From the NCBI GenBank assembly GCA_017347445.1, contig AP021856.1:1310613-1374612 (forward strand): a stretch of DNA of 64,000 nt, given 5' to 3'. The DNA comes from Candidatus Brocadia pituitae. GTDB taxonomy: Bacteria > Planctomycetota > Brocadiia > Brocadiales > Brocadiaceae. Both the position numbers and the translations under genes were made by a program. Each line of letters begins with the position of its first letter. Position 1 is the stretch's first letter. Under the pieces are notes generated by a model. That model did not search any database. It saw only the letters and a list, made by a program, of their open reading frames with translations, and was not told the origin of the DNA. Shown one piece after another: positions 14,467-21,419 of this stretch.

Positions 14467-14730
14467 TCAAAAGTTGTCAATTATATCATGGGTGCCTATA
14501 TAATAAAGCTTATACACATTTCCCTCTTGTTTAAATACACACCGATACCCTTTGTCTACGTAAAACTCCCGGAAGTCAGACCCTTCTAGCCGGTGTATTT
14601 GCAATGAATTGTGCCTGGGGTTCTCTTTCAGATAGGTTAATTGCTTTTTAAACTTCTTTTTGATCTCTTTTGGCAGGTTGTCGTATTGGAGGAAAAATTC
14701 TGGTTCAACGGCAATAAGATATTTGCTCAA
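14467..14730 (-). CDS. RelE/ParE-superfamily toxin
   Basis: The 87-residue product has the compact RelE-type fold pattern: VEPEFFLQYDNLPKEIKKKF helix region, then LQIHRLEGSDFREFYVDKGYRCVFK and a final strand YKLYYIGTHDII. Such toxins cleave mRNA at the ribosome or inhibit gyrase; which applies cannot be read here. Its start overlaps the upstream antitoxin stop by four bases, the classical antitoxin-toxin arrangement. Confidence 0.8.
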   Translation of the reverse strand: MSKYLIAVEPEFFLQYDNLPKEIKKKFKKQLTYLKENPRHNSLQIHRLEGSDFREFYVDKGYRCVFKQEGNVYKLYYIGTHDIIDNF

Positions 14731-14996
14731 TCTTTGAGTTCCTTAACAAATGTACCTATCTCATATGTTTTAAAATTGCCTTCCTTGAAGTTTTTATCTG
14801 CCTTTTTCACCTTCTTTTGCACATCAGAAGTCCAAAACCATGTCTGTGAACGTGGGATATTCACAGCGGGCTCTAATATAATCTTTCCTTTTTCTACCCG
14901 AAAAGCCAACTGATCTCCTGCCTTTATATGCAATGTTTCCCTGACCTCTTTCGGTATGGCAACTTGTCCTTTTTGAGATATTGTTAGTGTCTTCAT
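14727..14996 (-). CDS. AbrB/MazE-type antitoxin
   Basis: Residues 1-45 form a SpoVT-AbrB swapped-hairpin DNA-binding domain (TISQKGQVAIPKEVRETLHI, AGDQLAFRVEKGKIIL). The C-terminal half (WFWTSDVQKKVKKADKNFKE and beyond) is probably the toxin-neutralising tail. It overlaps the RelE-like toxin gene by four bases and likely represses the pair's promoter. A MazE/AbrB antitoxin with a RelE-type toxin is a known mixed pairing. Confidence 0.82.
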   Translation of the reverse strand: MKTLTISQKGQVAIPKEVRETLHIKAGDQLAFRVEKGKIILEPAVNIPRSQTWFWTSDVQKKVKKADKNFKEGNFKTYEIGTFVKELKD

Positions 14997-15123
14997 GGTA
15001 TTAAATTCCCATAACCCATCTTATAAAAACTTTGATCCTATAGTAAAATTGTAAAACTATTGTGCAAATACTATCATCTCCTCTCATGTATTTCAACACA
15101 TTTGTATTCTATACTACCCGTTT

Positions 15124-17442
15124 TTATAACATCATATAGGGGTCAACATCAACCATCGTTTGCACGCCTTTTGACGGTTTCAGCATATCTGCGATGCCCT
15201 GAAGGGCGTTGTGAATACTTGAATTGTTTTGCGCCTTTAATAAAATATGCCACCGGAACAGATTGTTGATTCTCGTTACGGGGGCCGGTGATGGTCCGAG
15301 TATTTCCAGATGATTGCCCGGTGTCCTTGCAATCTCTTTTAGCTTACCGGCAACAAGCGCGGATTTTTCTTTGGTCTTGTCCTCGTGCGGACTGCGGAGG
15401 ATGATCCGTGCCAGGTTTCCAAAAGGGGGGTAATGTAATTGTTTTCTATATTCCAGTTCTTTACCTGCAAAGCCTTCATAATCGTGAGCTGCTGCGTATG
15501 TGATGCTGTAGTGTCTGGGGTTGTAGGACTGCACCACCACCCGCCCGCCCTTTGTTCCTCTGCCGGTGCGTCCTGCAACCTGTGAGATGAGTTGAAATGT
15601 CCGCTCACCGGCACGGAAATCGGGCAGGTTCAATATCGTGTCTGCCGAGATTACCCCCACAAGGGTGACGTTGGGAAAATCCAGTCCCTTTGCAATCATT
15701 TGGGTGCCGAGTAATATCTGAAACTCACCTTGTTCAAATGCAGTCAGCGCCTTTTCATGGGAGTCGCGCACCCGCATGGTATCGCTGTCCATCCGAATGA
15801 TTTGATAATTGGGGAACTTGTTCCTGATCTCATCCTCAATCTTTTCTGTCCCGAAACCGCGATAGTTAATATTGCTGGCCAGGCAATCCGGGCATGATTC
15901 CGGCGGACGGGTCTCTGCGTGGCAATAATGGCATAAGATCGTATTGAGTTTTTTATGAAAGGTCATGGGGATATCGCATCGCTGACATTTTAATACAAAC
16001 CCGCACCGTTTACAGTTAATATACGGCGCAAAACCTCTGCGGTTCAAGAACAAGATCACCTGTTCCTTCCGGGCAAGGGACTGATTCATGTAATATTGCA
16101 ACCGCTGGGAAATGATGTTAAATCCCCTGCGTTTACGGACCTCTTCCCCCATATCAACGATATCGACAGGGGGGAGTTGTCGCTCACCAATCCTCCTGGA
16201 AAGGACGATCTTTTCATAGTTTCCTTTCCTGGCCTGATCGTAACTCTCCAGTGAGGGCGTGGCCGTGCCCATAATCACCATGGCATTCTCACGGGTTGCC
16301 CTGAGAATGGCAATATCTCGGGCGTTGTAGCGCGGATTATTTTCCTGTTTATAGGTATTCTCGTGTTCCTCATCGATAATAATTAGTCCAACGTTTTTCA
16401 GAGGGGCAAAGATGGAGGATCGGGCGCCGATGACGATATCCACCCTGCCGTCTTTAATATCGTTCCATTGTGATTGGTGGACAGTGCCCAGGAGGCTGCT
16501 GTGTAATACGGCAACCTTGTGGAACCGCGCCTTTATTCTTTGAATGGTCTGTGGGGTAAGGGATATCTCAGGGACAAGGTAAATAGCCTTGCGACCCTGT
16601 TCGAGCACCTTTGTTATAGATTGCAGGTATATCTCCGTCTTTCCGCTGCCCGTAATGCCGTGAAGCAAGAGAACACCCGGTTTTGGCCCTTCAAGTCTTT
16701 TGCAAATGGTGTCAAATGCCTTTTGCTGCTCCTGGGTAAGGGTGAGATGTTGCTGCAATTGATCGGTGTTACGAGGCGTGTTTGCAGCATCCTGGAGTTT
16801 GTTTTCAAGCGTAAGGAAACCTTTTTTCTCCAGTTGGCGAAGGCCGGGCATCTTGCAGCCACTGATGCGGATCACTTCTTTGGCACTTATTTCGTCAGGA
16901 TGCTCTAAAAGGATTTCCAGCGCCTTTGCCTGTTTTGGTGCGCGTGTTTTCATTTGCACCAGGGTTTCCTGATTGATGGCCAGGGCATGCGGATTACCTC
17001 TCACAAAGGTGTTCCATTTTTCCTTTATTCTGCTCCGAACCACAGGCGGAACAACCGCAGAGATTGCTTCTCCCCATCCGCAGCAGTAATGGGACGATAG
17101 CCAGCGGGTAATCTTCAGCATGATGTCATCAATCAGCGGCTCTTTATCGATGATACTTATGAGGTCTTTTGTTTTGTCAGTACATGGTGTATCAGTAAAT
17201 CCAACGCAAAAACCTGTTGTAATTTTGTTGCCAAAGGGTATTCTTACCCGCATACCTGCCTCAAGATTTTCTTGTAAGTGGGGGGGGACACGGTAATGAA
17301 ACACCTTCTGTAAAGGAATATTGACGACCACTTCTGCGTATAATTTTTGAGGTGGTTGATTTGCCGGACTCGTGTGCGTTTCCGGTCGGATATCAATTGG
17401 ATATGTGGAGGGGGGATTCTGATTGGGAAGACTGGCAGGCAT
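15124..17442 (-). CDS. priA: Primosomal protein N' (replication restart helicase PriA)
   Basis: This 772-residue helicase reloads replication forks. It has the N-terminal 3' DNA-binding domain (YAEVVVNIPLQKVFHYRVP), Walker A in HGITGSGKTEIY (261-272), DEEH box at 357-360, and a Cys-rich zinc region at about 465-515 (CKRCGFVLKCQRC, CHYCHAETRPPESCPDC). The helicase motifs GTQMIAKGLDFPNVTLVG and QVAGRTGRG follow. A 33-residue N-terminal leader rich in Pro may be a start-site artefact, and a later start is possible. It is a single gene, convergent with nothing immediately downstream. Confidence 0.95.
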   Translation of the reverse strand: MPASLPNQNPPSTYPIDIRPETHTSPANQPPQKLYAEVVVNIPLQKVFHYRVPPHLQENLEAGMRVRIPFGNKITTGFCVGFTDTPCTDKTKDLISIIDKEPLIDDIMLKITRWLSSHYCCGWGEAISAVVPPVVRSRIKEKWNTFVRGNPHALAINQETLVQMKTRAPKQAKALEILLEHPDEISAKEVIRISGCKMPGLRQLEKKGFLTLENKLQDAANTPRNTDQLQQHLTLTQEQQKAFDTICKRLEGPKPGVLLLHGITGSGKTEIYLQSITKVLEQGRKAIYLVPEISLTPQTIQRIKARFHKVAVLHSSLLGTVHQSQWNDIKDGRVDIVIGARSSIFAPLKNVGLIIIDEEHENTYKQENNPRYNARDIAILRATRENAMVIMGTATPSLESYDQARKGNYEKIVLSRRIGERQLPPVDIVDMGEEVRKRRGFNIISQRLQYYMNQSLARKEQVILFLNRRGFAPYINCKRCGFVLKCQRCDIPMTFHKKLNTILCHYCHAETRPPESCPDCLASNINYRGFGTEKIEDEIRNKFPNYQIIRMDSDTMRVRDSHEKALTAFEQGEFQILLGTQMIAKGLDFPNVTLVGVISADTILNLPDFRAGERTFQLISQVAGRTGRGTKGGRVVVQSYNPRHYSITYAAAHDYEGFAGKELEYRKQLHYPPFGNLARIILRSPHEDKTKEKSALVAGKLKEIARTPGNHLEILGPSPAPVTRINNLFRWHILLKAQNNSSIHNALQGIADMLKPSKGVQTMVDVDPYMML

Positions 17443-17865
17443 AGGTTCCTATTTTAATGTACAGGAAATTTAATCTGGTAGCGCAACCGTCCCGGTTGCT
17501 TGAAAAGCAGCTACGGATACAAATTTTTAGAATATTTTATGGTAAGATACTAGCAAAAGAAACCGTATCATGTCAAGGCAGATGAGACACAGCACCAGAG
17601 GTTACTCTGTGTTTGTTACAGATGCCAAGACGTAAGCGTTTACTAAGGATTATTGCGTAAAGGTAAGTTAGTTCATTCTTGCAGATTAAATCAGCTATTT
17701 CGAATCACATCATAGGTTTAAAAAACACTCGTTGTAAAATCGAAATTAATTTTGTGTCTGATTATATGAGATTATATTTGAAGGGTTTTTGGTACCAAAG
17801 ATAGGATTATTTTATGAATAACGCATGTATGAATGCGATGGTTGCGAGATTTGTATATATTCCCA
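17443..17865. other. 423-bp region between priA and the integron cassette
   Basis: I found no coding frame, tRNA or clear repeat here. It is AT-rich towards the right. If the integron once held more cassettes, this is where they would have been. No second attC was recognised. Confidence 0.5.
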
Positions 17866-17937
17866 GCATAACGCCGGAATTCAGCCGCCGACAGCCCGCG
17901 TAGCGGGATGGCGGTCGGCTGGAATGACTTGTTAGCC
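17866..17937 (-). other. attC recombination site of the TIR cassette
   Basis: Read on the minus strand, GGCTAAC (17937-17931) and GTTATGC (17872-17866) are the outer core boxes. The inner arms CAGCCGAC and GTCGGCGGCTG pair with one extrahelical base around a GC-rich loop. This is the classical 59-base-element layout, and the gene's TAA stop lies inside the first box, as usual for integron cassettes. Spurious frames through it read like KSFQPTAIPLRGLSAAEFRR, a familiar mistranslation of attC repeats. Confidence 0.88.
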
Positions 17938-18685
17938 ATAAATCGCTGGATCAAATCCTGGTGCATCAAGGTCATATCCATACTCTTTGCATAAGGCCTT
18001 TAGCTGCTTCTTTTTGTCGTTTGAGATCGGTATCACATCCGGGTTCCCATAGTAAAGTGCTTTGACAACAGCCAGTGCTATCTCTTTACGAGTATATGGT
18101 CGATTGTGCACATACAATGGGAAGTAAGTGTCTGGAAACTCTGCCGCCTCGAATAGGTTGAACGCTGGGCCATCTTCATTGTTTATAAGTAATTCGCCGC
18201 AACCTCGCAGGAACCGCCATTGCGGATTCTCGTAACTCGGGCTCACGCCACGCGCAGGACAATCTTGGTAAACGACATCGGCTATCTTGTTAGCAACAGA
18301 ACCGGCGCCCTCCGTACTCTTAAGTGCGATGATTCCCGTCAACCCAGGGTTCCATTGGTCTATTTGCGCCTTGTCAATAGTATGCCAAATAGGAAACAGC
18401 GTCTTATCTGTTTCGATGTGTTGCCGATGCAGCACGCCCAGTTCGTAGCTTGTCCATTGCTTGGCAATGTAAGCCGGCGAAAGGATCAACAGCCCGTACT
18501 CAGATGCTATTAACCCAGCATTGATTGAGTCAAGCAATTTGTCGCCAACGTTCATAGACAGCGGGGCAAACCATACCGAGAGTCCAAGAAACCTCAGGGC
18601 GCTAGCAAGCTCAGACGCAAAGGACTCATCTTCTACTGCGTACGAAATAAATAGGTGATACGGCTTGGTCATCGTTAATGGCTAA
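17872..18685 (-). mobile_element. Integron gene cassette (814 bp)
   Basis: The cassette runs from the G/TTAGCC junction (complement of 18680-18686) to the G of GTTATGC in attC (17872). It holds the TIR gene and its attC only. Its gene points away from the intI remnant, the normal geometry of an integron. Confidence 0.8.
17932..18672 (-). CDS. TIR-domain protein carried on an integron gene cassette
   Basis: Residues 1-135 form a TIR domain: HLFISYAVEDE, then LGLSVWFAPLSM, and QWTSYELGVL with E77 at the position of the NADase catalytic glutamate. The remaining 110 residues (WRFLRGCGELLINNEDGPAF, RPYTRKEIALAVVKALYYG) are an unrecognised C-terminal domain. Bacterial TIR proteins commonly degrade NAD+ or make signalling nucleotides in anti-phage defence, and that role is inferred here. 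The gene begins 14 bases after the cassette boundary and its stop is inside attC, so the cassette contains almost nothing else. Codon use and GC differ from the neighbouring accessory genes. Confidence 0.85.
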   Translation of the reverse strand: MTKPYHLFISYAVEDESFASELASALRFLGLSVWFAPLSMNVGDKLLDSINAGLIASEYGLLILSPAYIAKQWTSYELGVLHRQHIETDKTLFPIWHTIDKAQIDQWNPGLTGIIALKSTEGAGSVANKIADVVYQDCPARGVSPSYENPQWRFLRGCGELLINNEDGPAFNLFEAAEFPDTYFPLYVHNRPYTRKEIALAVVKALYYGNPDVIPISNDKKKQLKALCKEYGYDLDAPGFDPAIYG

Positions 18686-18872
18686 CATGAATTAGGCGTA
18701 CTAATAGCTGTCTTATTTTGCGGCTATTAGTACATATAATACGTTTACTAGAGACTTATTATACGGCTATTTTGGCGTATAATAAGGTTCACAAAAATTT
18801 TGCCGGTAATATACCTTAAATTACCAGAATAGTGCAATACTTTTATCTTTTCCATGATGAAAAGGAACTCCT
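18686..18872. promoter_or_regulatory. attI-like region with two perfect hairpins
   Basis: The space between the cassette junction and intI should contain attI and the divergent promoters. It shows two perfect 10-bp inverted repeats: TACTAATAGC/GCTATTAGTA (18699-18708 and 18723-18732) and CTTATTATAC/GTATAATAAG (18755-18764 and 18777-18786). Both loops contain a GCGGCTATT or ACGGCTATT-like sequence. An AAGGAA ribosome site precedes intI at 18862-18867. Confidence 0.5.
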
Positions 18873-19019
18873 ATGCCAGAACCAAAATTGCTGGATCAGG
18901 TTCGGGATGCAATCAGGGTAAAGTATTATAGCATGAGGACCGAAGAGGCGTATGTTTATTGGATTAAACGATTTATCCTTTTTCACGAAAAACGGCATCC
19001 ATTACACATAGTTCCTTAA
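18873..19019 (+). pseudogene. intI: Truncated integron integrase intI
   Basis: 48 codons remain: MPEPKLLDQVRDAIRVKYYS, RTEEAYVYWIKRFILFHEKR, then HPLHIVP and a stop. This matches the N-terminal SAM-like DNA-binding part of integron integrases (KLLDQVRDxIRxKHYSxRTExxYVxWIKRFIxFHxKRHP), from memory of the family. The whole tyrosine-recombinase catalytic domain is missing, cut at or just after the HP motif. The AIR-synthase-like gene follows at once, so the 3' part was deleted. The remnant cannot recombine cassettes. Confidence 0.85.
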
Positions 19020-19038
19020 CATTCATAACCCCATTTCT

Positions 19039-20046
19039 TTACAAAACTTTCGTGATCTCATCTACCTTAAAGGTAGGTATGCTCACCAGTTTTCCTTTTG
19101 TTAAGAGCCTCAATCCCTTGCCTTTCTTCGTAAGCTTGCCTATCTGGGTGCATGCGATACCATGCTTTGCAAGGATGGCAACGATTTTATTGGTATCCGC
19201 GGGGTGAAGTGCAATCAGCAATGACCCCGACGCAATGAGGCCAAGCGGGTGGATGCCGAACAACGTGCATATCTCGTTAGTTTCTTTATAGCATGGGATC
19301 TTTTCTGCGTAAATAACGGCTCCCGTTCCTGAAGCCTTCGTAAGCTCCAGAATGCCGGTAGACAGTCCACCTTCCGTTGGGTCATGCATGGCATGAATGC
19401 TGGCTACGGTATTCGCCAATAAGGCATCTGCAACGACACTTAATCCGGGCTTGTCGATGAATGCCTGTGCTCTTTTGAGAAACCGGTCACCAAATTTTTT
19501 CTGGATGAATGCGGACTTTTCACGCGCAATAATGGCCGTTCCTTCAATAGCAATCCCCTTGGTGAGTAAAAGGTCGTCTCCTGGTTTTGCATTTGAGTTT
19601 ATCACAAGCTTGTCCCTTTCAACTTCACCCAGCATGTGGCCAATAACAATGGGACGATCGATCTCATAAGAAATTTCGGTGTGTCCGCCGCACAGGGTGA
19701 TATTGAGTTTTTGGGTAGATTTCATAATGTCTTGAAATATACGGGTGACCAGCTTTCTGTCTGTCTTCCCTTCAGGCAGCAGCAGTGTTGCCATGAACCA
19801 CTTGGGAGTTGCCCCCATGGTGGCAATGTCATTGGCGTTTACGTTGACGGCATACCAGCCGATACGGTGGGTGGTAAAGGTAATGGGGTCGGTCTTGGCG
19901 ACAAGGAATTTTTCCCCAAAATCGATGACGGCTGCATCCTCACCAATCCTGGGACCCACAATGATTCTCGGGTCAGTGATCGGGTTTGAGTTGAGGAGTT
20001 TTTCCAGCAGGTGGATATCAAGTTTTCCTACAGGAAAATATTTCAT
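19039..20046 (-). CDS. AIR synthase-related (HypE-like) ATP-binding protein
   Basis: The 335-residue product has the PurM/HypE/SelD two-domain fold. N-terminal GEDAAVIDFGEKFLVAKTDP and VNVNANDIATMGATPKWF form the ATP/Mg site. The C-terminal domain starts around PGDDLLLTKGIAIEGTAIIA and includes MHDPTEGGLSTGILEL. SelD's catalytic Cys/Sec loop and HypE's C-terminal Cys are absent, so neither selenide dikinase nor carbamoyl-phosphate dehydratase can be claimed. It lies downstream of a PIG-L deacetylase on the same strand with a 73-bp gap and may be cotranscribed. Confidence 0.82.
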   Translation of the reverse strand: MKYFPVGKLDIHLLEKLLNSNPITDPRIIVGPRIGEDAAVIDFGEKFLVAKTDPITFTTHRIGWYAVNVNANDIATMGATPKWFMATLLLPEGKTDRKLVTRIFQDIMKSTQKLNITLCGGHTEISYEIDRPIVIGHMLGEVERDKLVINSNAKPGDDLLLTKGIAIEGTAIIAREKSAFIQKKFGDRFLKRAQAFIDKPGLSVVADALLANTVASIHAMHDPTEGGLSTGILELTKASGTGAVIYAEKIPCYKETNEICTLFGIHPLGLIASGSLLIALHPADTNKIVAILAKHGIACTQIGKLTKKGKGLRLLTKGKLVSIPTFKVDEITKVL

Positions 20047-20065
20047 AACTATTTATCAAGTATTT

Positions 20066-20102
20066 TTACAACCCCCTTGATTCCCCTTTTGTAAGGGGGA
20101 CT
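20066..20102. repeat. C-rich/G-rich palindromic repeat
   Basis: An AACCCCCTTGATTCCCC...GGGGGA type palindrome lies between the two genes of this operon. A related copy is at 36990-37072, and another C/G-rich palindrome is at 20915-20952. Confidence 0.5.
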
Positions 20103-20119
20103 TGGTTGTGGCTTTGTTG

Positions 20120-20806
20120 CTAAACGATATCGCGTATATCCTTTAAGCCAACCTGTTCCCGGCTCATGAAGGGTTCTCCGTAATCAACGCGGATCAGATT
20201 GCCGTAATATTGACTCCTTGCGGTAATTGAATTGCTGATATGTTTCCATCGGTCGTCATCATAGGCAAACTGGGATTGATAGACCCGCGCAATCTGGAGT
20301 TTCTTTTCAAATTCCTTACTGATATCCAGGATAAATGAGGGGGTGACATGTAGTCGGAAATGGGAACAGAGGTAATAATAGATGTGGGTTGGATACCACG
20401 GCTCTCCGGGGATATCTGATTTGGTCAGTTTTGCATAGAATCGGGCTGCTTCGCCGATCTGGGTGGTTTGGACATGGTCAGGGTGTGCATCAACCCAGTA
20501 AGGAAGGAAAAGCACGTGCGGTCGTATCTTCCGGATCACGGCAGCGACCTTTTTACGGGCATCGATACTGTCCATGAGATAACGATTGGGCAAATCAAGC
20601 ACCGTCCTGCTCTTTACACCGAGCATGGCCGTTGACTGTTCCCATTCTTTCTGTCTGATTTCAGGACTGCCATGCGGGGTGGGTTCGCCGTTCGTCAGGT
20701 CGAGGATGTGGACATCATAACCGAGGGTAACGAGTTTCAGGATGCTGCCTCCCATACCGCCTTCTGCATCATCCGGGTGAGGAGCTATTACAAGAATCGT
20801 TGTCAT
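20120..20806 (-). CDS. PIG-L family deacetylase (BshB1-like)
   Basis: This 228-residue zinc-dependent N-deacetylase of the LmbE/PIG-L family has the metal motif PHPDDAE near the N-terminus and HPDH in YWVDAHPDHVQT. The segment LDLTNGEPTPHGSPEIRQKE resembles BshB1, which deacetylates GlcNAc-malate in bacillithiol synthesis. That substrate is a reasonable guess, but no other bacillithiol gene is nearby. Removal of N-acetyl groups from another amino sugar is the alternative. Confidence 0.82.
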   Translation of the reverse strand: MTTILVIAPHPDDAEGGMGGSILKLVTLGYDVHILDLTNGEPTPHGSPEIRQKEWEQSTAMLGVKSRTVLDLPNRYLMDSIDARKKVAAVIRKIRPHVLFLPYWVDAHPDHVQTTQIGEAARFYAKLTKSDIPGEPWYPTHIYYYLCSHFRLHVTPSFILDISKEFEKKLQIARVYQSQFAYDDDRWKHISNSITARSQYYGNLIRVDYGEPFMSREQVGLKDIRDIV

Positions 20807-21419
20807 ATGAAGCGCCTTCAGATAAACAATTTGACGTTAAAATTAAGAAAATAAACGTAACAATTAAGCTTGTTGAAAAAGGTAGCGCCGATCCCTTGTG
20901 GTCGGCTTGTGCGGGGGATATCCACCCCCTAACCCCCGCCAGCGGGGGGCACTACCCGCACTACGCATTCTGTTTCGTGTGGATTACTTATAAATGTACG
21001 GATTTTTCAAAAAGCTAGATTGTTACGAAAATTCATAGAAAGTGGAAGGTGGTATTGTACTGAATGACCAGAAAAATGCAAGCGAAAGAGTAACACGTCA
21101 GCAGCATGTGACAAATTTGTAACAATTTAGCTTTTTGAAAATATATTGCAGTTTATGTTGGGTGGCACGGACAAACTCCGTTTGTCCGTGTGATAACCTA
21201 GACCAATTTGTACGCAATCACGGACAAGCAAAGCTTGTCCGTGCCACCCATGATGCTCGAAAATATGTGCATCAATTTTCAAAAATCTAAAGTGGTACAC
21301 AAATTTACTAGCGATGTACAGCCGAAGCCAAATCCCTCGTCCTCCCCCTCGATCCTCCTCCGAAGGAAGAGATGGAGTGTACAGGGGGTGAATAAACTTG
21401 CGAAACCGGGATAATATTT
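20807..21419. other. 613-bp repeat-rich intergenic region
   Basis: No gene was found. It holds a C/G-rich palindrome (20915-20952), two inverted copies of a TCAAAAAGCTAnATTGTTAC motif (21003-21037 and 21116-21142), and a 90-bp MITE-like palindrome (21160-21249). Confidence 0.55.
21160..21249. repeat. MITE-like palindromic element, copy 1
   Basis: Terminal inverted repeats GGGTGGCACGGACAA / TTGTCCGTGCCACCC bound the element. Inside each end is a further hairpin (CGGACAAACTCCGTTTGTCCG-like and CGGACAAGCAAAGCTTGTCC). A second copy with the same ends but a longer middle is at 23714-23878. Confidence 0.75.

Follow-up and report, generated by a model that had tools for sequence, protein, structure and literature searches.

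A dispersed attI site with a truncated integrase gene and a single TIR cassette in an anammox bacterium, possibly served in trans

The window analysed here is a 64-kb stretch of DNA (positions 1310613-1374612) from a one-contig genome of 4.075 Mb (G000). Since the hydrazine synthase alpha domain (PF18582) occurs twice in it and in none of 14 control genomes, this genome can be assigned to an anammox bacterium; the two hydrazine synthase alpha genes, at G000:C1:857532 and G000:C1:3029406, have equal domain scores. For comparison we used 11 genomes of the same genus (G000-G010), 22 others from the family and 26 from other families of the order, several of the relatives being draft assemblies; the closest relative found was a sister species, G008. 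The locus of interest within the window (locus W) lies between a helicase gene, which we take to be PriA-like, and a gene that is presumably AIR-synthase/HypE-like, and comprises the following features.

15124-17442, minus strand: left-flank gene (helicase)
17866-17937, minus strand: attC of the TIR cassette, 72 bp, identified by sequence, by fold and by a covariance model lacking its own copy
17866-17872 and 17931-17937, minus strand: core boxes of this attC, R' (GTTATGC) and R'' (GGCTAAC), respectively
17872-18685, minus strand: gene cassette of 814 bp, with TTAGCC at one end and the crossover G of its own attC at the other
17932-18672, minus strand: TIR-domain protein of 246 aa, with the TIR domain at aa 3-135 and a C-terminal domain at aa ~136-246
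18686-18786, plus strand: attI core of ~101 bp, recurring across the genus, whose first base is the crossover C
18698-18733, plus strand: inverted repeat 1, a conserved 14-bp stem, GTACTAATAGCYGT-N8-RCGGCTATTAGTAC
18756-18785, plus strand: inverted repeat 2, TTATTATACG...CGTATAATAA, where the conserved attI core ends
18873-19019, plus strand: intI remnant, in which integron integrase codons 1-46 are followed by fused flank and a stop
19039-20046, minus strand: right-flank gene, joined on its 3' side to the intI remnant

Beyond the helicase gene, the window also contains two small ORFs in tandem (14467-14996), which we take to be AbrB-like and RelE-like and probably a toxin-antitoxin pair.

As proposed in a reading made from the sequence alone (hereafter the sequence-only reading), the 814-bp minus-strand cassette starts at a G/TTAGCC boundary (18685|18686), ends in a textbook attC, and has the stop codon of its gene (TAA) inside the first core box, R'' (GGCTAAC), which is the exact complement of G+TTAGCC. 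The segment that varies between G000 and G008 terminates at these same crossover points. The attC scores 50.6 bits (E 9e-11), far above background, with a covariance model built from 10 of 14 other attC seeds, omitting the window copy and an 83% sibling; the runner-up in the 64 kb reaches 18 bits (E 0.03). Its bottom strand, whose folding had been put forward as a check, folds at -20.8 kcal/mol (z -3.5 versus shuffles). A rule-based attC scan proved unspecific when used alone, because loose settings returned 12 rows, 11 of them elsewhere in the window and some long with strong folds; under strict settings the window had two sites, the TIR-cassette attC and a weak 53-bp site (-9.8 kcal/mol), and an intermediate setting matched 1, 0 and 1 times in three Markov-shuffled windows. 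Rfam gave nothing at E<=1 in 15000-21000, and the attC and attI models were therefore made in the present analysis. Of the elements that characterise an integron, the locus has an attC with R''/R' boxes and a folded bottom strand, together with an attI that adjoins intI (as a remnant) and a cassette inserted at G^TT; of a functional intI in cis, 46 codons are left. CALINs are defined by at least two attC sites, with the integrase absent nearby, and the window has one convincing attC. These features support the description of locus W as an integron platform (attI, attC and intI remnant) with one TIR cassette.

The TIR domain that the sequence-only reading had recognised in the cassette gene product is matched by Pfam TIR_2 (64 bits), as well as by PDC-S66, a candidate-defence family of PADLOC (E 8e-39, limited to aa 3-134). 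The predicted structure (mean pLDDT 86) resembles the TIR structures of AbTir and BtTir. TIR domains have a glutamate with a catalytic role, and the corresponding E77 is invariant in 12/12 aligned sequences, so that the protein combines the TIR fold and the conserved Glu of a TIR NAD hydrolase. This is the extent of its likeness to PDC-S66, Thoeris ThsB, AbTir and BtTir: the matches end near aa 135 and leave the C-terminal domain uncovered. These C-terminal ~110 residues, described before as unrecognised, did indeed find nothing convincing in Pfam (DUF7713 at E 0.14 in 1/10 relatives), a best E of 0.074 against PDB sequences and 0 matches at E<=0.001 against PDB folds; the structure prediction suggested for this region yielded a model (C-terminal pLDDT 84) and no match for its fold. 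On reading the neighbourhood, we noticed no ThsA-like ORF beside the TIR gene, its flanking ORFs being the PriA-like and AIR-synthase-like ones, and a scan for sigma-70 promoters across 18600-19040 found 0, versus 1.8 expected.

Relatives that span the C-terminal domain (39-72% identical) were found in Undibacterium, Azonexus, Rubrivivax, Hydrogenophaga, Leucothrix and mussel symbionts, as well as in a prophage-like contig and on Pantoea plasmids. The gene is not fixed at this locus in relatives: among the other 10 genus genomes, one TIR match at E<=1e-10 was found, in G007, and it is 35% identical over aa 1-122. Given this near-absence from the other ten genomes and the best match, at 72%, in Undibacterium, the TIR gene is probably of outside origin. 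A search for other cassettes carrying the C-terminal domain, as the sequence-only reading had suggested, was successful in part. A clear attC is present at 1 of 13 loci of relatives (L117, E 3e-9), where it lies 313 bp beyond the TIR relative with a small ORF in between; a weak match (E 0.026) lies upstream of the TIR relative at L119, and core-box-like sequences (GTTAGCC/GTTAGGC) stand immediately upstream of it at L112 and L121. The remaining nine loci had no match to the attC model and no core box that we noticed at gene starts. In the prophage-like contig (L018, 5001-7043) the 58% TIR relative is accompanied by ORFs that we take to be portal/terminase-like, another TIR-like ORF and an SRAP-like ORF.

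Family membership suggests that the product of the cassette is an NAD-cleaving anti-phage effector, in which the C-terminal domain may sense or regulate, and the cassette is plausibly one for defence. It is unlikely that the protein instead has a housekeeping function or acts as an interbacterial or host-directed effector, a role brought to mind by the closest solved folds, which include TIRs of animal-associated bacteria, one of them titled an immunosuppressor. Against this reading stand the host, an anammox bacterium, the strength of the PDC-S66 match, though confined to the TIR part, and the settings of its relatives, namely a prophage-like contig, plasmids and, at one of the 13 loci, the vicinity of an attC.

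On the other side of the attI, the frame at 18873-19019 matches Pfam Phage_int_SAM_4 (E 9e-13) and, with 43-45 bits over about 40 residues, NCBIfam TIGR02249 and PRK15417, scores that lie far under the full-length cut-offs, as expected of a fragment. The sequence-only reading had seen here a 48-codon remnant of an integron integrase; the identification as an integrase N-terminus stands, with codons 1-46 forming the integrase part and fused flank the rest.

Locus W does not stand alone: the attI core is present in at least nine copies in G000 and at 55 sites in the genus (counted by hand, with antisense duplicates dropped). A DNA search of G000 with the attI region located eight further places at 70-95% identity, leaving weaker and shorter matches uncounted. 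An attI model built from 19 copies then found sites in 28/59 genomes searched: 11/11 of the genus (our own included), 13/22 of the other family members and 4/26 from other families of the order, among them G046 with 10 sites. Within the genus, the numbers per genome are 9 (G000), 1 (G001), 8 (G002), 1 (G003), 5 (G004), 6 (G005), 3 (G006), 6 (G007), 7 (G008), 5 (G009) and 4 (G010). The homology starts no more than about 10 bp from the crossover point, and many of the remoter copies lose it near base 100; across 15 copies, mean pairwise identity is 90% in the core versus 75% in the leader that follows. A 66-bp partial attI, followed by two attC, was also seen within the cassette part of a different attI locus (L019 11681-11746; G000:C1 near 1748700), and is reminiscent of the delta-attI cassettes of mobile integrons, as excerpts of PMC12901181 present them.

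The inverted repeats of the core are largely preserved among copies. In inverted repeat 1, 97.9% of cells are paired, 4 cells are changed on both sides, 13 are G-T on the plus strand and 6 are unpaired, and 2/14 pairs are changed on both sides; in inverted repeat 2, 88.4% of cells are paired and no pair is changed on both sides. For the whole attI structure, none of 500 shuffles reached the covariation score or the percentage paired, and 71/500 had as many pairs with changes on both sides; because of this last figure, and because the attI copies are related, a structural role of the stem is only suggested. We also considered the palindrome as a transcription terminator and dropped the idea, no terminator-like site having been found in a scan. 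A recognised attC in the expected orientation was found within 4.5 kb of 30/59 attI sites, so that many of the pads may be dead, and the conservation of attI could in part reflect recent spread instead of use.

We sought to determine whether these sites have integrases of their own. None of 59 attI sites has a complete linked integrase (up to 1.7 kb searched; at six sites the contig ends within about 1 kb); 34 show no integrase similarity and 25 have fragments, the longest uninterrupted stretches being 220 (cut by a contig end), 185, 141, 138 and 126 aa, versus about 315 positions in the family model. In every copy seen, the remnant-type integrase is broken or cut by a contig end. Intact integrases are nevertheless encoded elsewhere in both G000 (G000:1436084; a 417-aa frame with two attC upstream, one strong and one weak) and G008 (G008:C36; a 461-aa frame with two attC upstream), and retain in alignment what we take to be the tyrosine-recombinase motifs. 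These proteins are distant in type from the locus-W remnant, and the surroundings of the complete integrases checked yielded no attI of the W type. G009 likewise has an intact integrase, in a 343-aa frame. More widely, L002, L086 and L087 (from G000, G004 and G008) have integrase frames of 417-461 aa with N-terminal extensions, unlike the remnant type of the dispersed attI sites; the draft genomes G001, G005, G006 and G007 showed no complete integron integrase.

The two genes that flank locus W adjoin in G000 and G008 alone among the 11 genus genomes; in the other nine they are 0.45 Mb apart (G004) or on different contigs (seven drafts), or the left one only was found (G007). The sequence-only reading had proposed looking in relatives for an intact intI at this place. 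In G008, the orthologous gene is truncated at the identical breakpoint, with one extra base within the remnant and with flanks that are 93% identical. Behind this same lesion, sequence comparison reveals different content in the two species: the 814 bp between attI and outer flank that hold the TIR gene in G000 are replaced in G008 by 1064 bp with two other genes, presumably encoding a GNAT-like acetyltransferase and a pyridoxamine-oxidase-like protein. One attC was recognised behind these two genes, a weak one (E 0.02 with model R1, 1.3e-4 with R3), and in both genomes the outer flank starts with TTATGC right behind the attC G.

At three further loci, a large intI deletion specific to the locus is likewise common to G000 and G008, and flanks on both sides of the four loci are 88-96% identical. 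The loci, with their positions in G000, are as follows (content measured from attI to flank, G000 versus G008; E values of the closing attC with model R1).

Locus W (the window locus): intI codons 1-46 kept; content 814 versus 1064 bp; attC E 3e-14 (G000) and 0.02 (G008)
Locus C (630 kb): intI codons 40-145 lost; content 1259 versus 588 bp; attC E 2e-11 and 1.5e-4
Locus A (1742 kb): intI codons 1-107 lost; content 8063 versus 0 bp; attC E 7.5e-8 (G000) and 0.003 (G007)
Locus D (1308 kb): intI codons about 33-241 lost; content about 5.7 versus 1.6 kb; attC E 0.009 and 2e-5

Support for these closing attC sites is mixed; several are seeds of model R1, and some are weakly recognised. At locus C, G000 has a 385-aa ORF and G008 one of 97 aa; locus D has two cassettes in G008, and part of its 5.7 kb in G000 is presumably accounted for by an IS66-like element. 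At W, C and D, G000 and G008 both have their junctions on crossover points. The same is true of A but for one base: in G008 the sequence behind attI reads TAGAC and lacks one T of G^TT, so that the empty site is imperfect as a crossover product. In G007, locus A has 3.1 kb of content and no recognisable intI. Content also differs at a fifth locus (E, at 1090 kb in G000) and in a G004/G010 pair, both lacking a clean G^TT/core-box junction. The same cassette content was found across species in one pair, G003:C2 (L068, a 7.7-kb contig) and G020 (L167, from another genus), which are 99.6-99.9% identical over two stretches at an attI locus; this near-identity possibly reflects misbinning or recent transfer, and the pair was omitted from the species comparison.

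BLAST among the loci found several shared segments, of which one was traced to its ends: a 553-bp cassette with G^TT ends, present at 85-91% identity in several species. It lies at an attI in G002, where the linked intI is broken, after an attC at locus D of G000, in G007 behind a core-box-like G, and in G009 within an attC array beside an intact integrase. In G000 it is also G^TT-joined to an integrase frame that lacks the first ~80 codons (beginning at model position 67; L026 4468-5187, G000:C1 about 1779467-1780186), as if recombination of an attC with a secondary site in intI had taken away the attI side and the 5' part of the gene. Secondary-site recombination of this kind might be one way in which these integrases are destroyed.

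Taken as a whole, these comparisons make it probable, in our view, that locus W is one landing pad of a dispersed integron, in which attI pads that have no integrase of their own are served in trans. The integrase of the locus would have been cut to 46 codons before the split of G000 and G008, with the ~101-bp attI staying usable; an unlinked integron integrase would act in trans on this attI and on the attC sites of cassettes, which would keep entering and leaving, as with the TIR gene in G000 and the putative acetyltransferase and pyridoxamine-oxidase genes in G008. Such service, whether past or present, would be the simplest account of the data.

The different contents could also have arisen by shuffling of alleles, in which cassettes diverged while intI was active, and an allele with the truncated intI then spread by homologous recombination, with a crossover in attI or its leader, so that activity in trans would be unneeded. 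The attI and leader do supply homology for such crossovers, and at locus A the attI cores of G000 and G008 differ at 11 of about 100 bases (counted by hand), against 95.3% overall identity in the 909 bp on the side of intI, a contrast that hints at conversion. Yet this account needs four independent events at four loci with four different deletions, the flanks look vertically inherited on both sides, and it sits poorly with the presence of the 553-bp cassette exactly at the crossover of the G002 attI with its broken linked intI; we judge it to be quite unlikely. That the loss of the integrase froze the cassette of a single inactivated integron, as the sequence-only reading had it, the species differing by ordinary deletion of cassettes from a long ancestral array, would be a known outcome (in the parts of PMC12444791 that treat Xanthomonas, strains sharing an intI lesion usually carry arrays that are identical), but it is very improbable here, as ordinary deletions rarely fall on crossover points, as the junctions do at W, C and D (and, minus one T, at A), as excision of cassettes at such points would itself require an integrase after the split, and as G008, with an identical breakpoint, has other genes between these crossover points.

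We therefore retain service in trans as the preferred reading of locus W. Its extension to the group is about evenly balanced: members of the genus and relatives in the order may run a distributed integron, in which dozens of solo ~101-bp attI pads with a conserved stem-loop are kept after integrase loss and are served by one or a few unlinked integrases. In the usual picture, an integron has one integrase, one attI and one array, and loss of the integrase ends exchange.

Parts of this picture have precedents. CALINs likewise have attC cassettes and no functional linked integrase, and mobilisation of such integrase-less arrays in trans is stated to be possible in the portions of PMC12444791 at hand; the locus described here differs in retaining a multi-copy ~101-bp attI and in that orthologous sites hold different cassettes behind the same lesion. 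The same portions describe the ilvD integrons of Xanthomonas, in which ancestral intI deletions are common to related strains and arrays remain, with intI at one place and arrays that are usually identical behind a given lesion; here, in contrast, attI sites are many, and arrays differ at four loci (PMC12444791). Genomes with several intI genes together with intI pseudogenes, planctomycetes being among the hosts, are reported in PMC2426708, a likeness in multiple and decayed intI; dispersed attI sites of one family and their turnover find no mention in the sections of that paper available to us. Sedentary chromosomal integrons have been presented as anti-phage biobanks (Darracq et al. 2025, as summarised in passages of PMC12409362), with cassettes that carry small defence genes. 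Judged by its sequence, the locus-W TIR gene would join this known class of integron-borne candidate defence genes; what sets it apart from the integrons of that summary is a candidate TIR protein with an unmatched C-terminal domain on an integrase-less pad with one cassette (PMC12409362). A search of the open-licence literature (subscription journals and preprints lying outside its scope) found no description of dispersed integrase-less attI sites, and no title on integrons of anammox bacteria was among the matches listed. CALINs and trans mobilisation being already known, what sets the present case apart is the retention of attI in many copies, together with different arrays behind the same lesion.

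Four orthologous integrase-less sites with differing cassettes make action in trans testable in nature, beyond plasmid assays. Moreover, since attI sites outside class 1 are poorly known, according to the portions of PMC9024848 at hand, the 55 sites of the genus represent a natural series for defining what an attI requires. For anammox bacteria, the data suggest how defence and accessory genes could reach many separate places in the chromosome. If the reading of a distributed integron is true, new cassettes, those for defence included, would enter at many places instead of one array.
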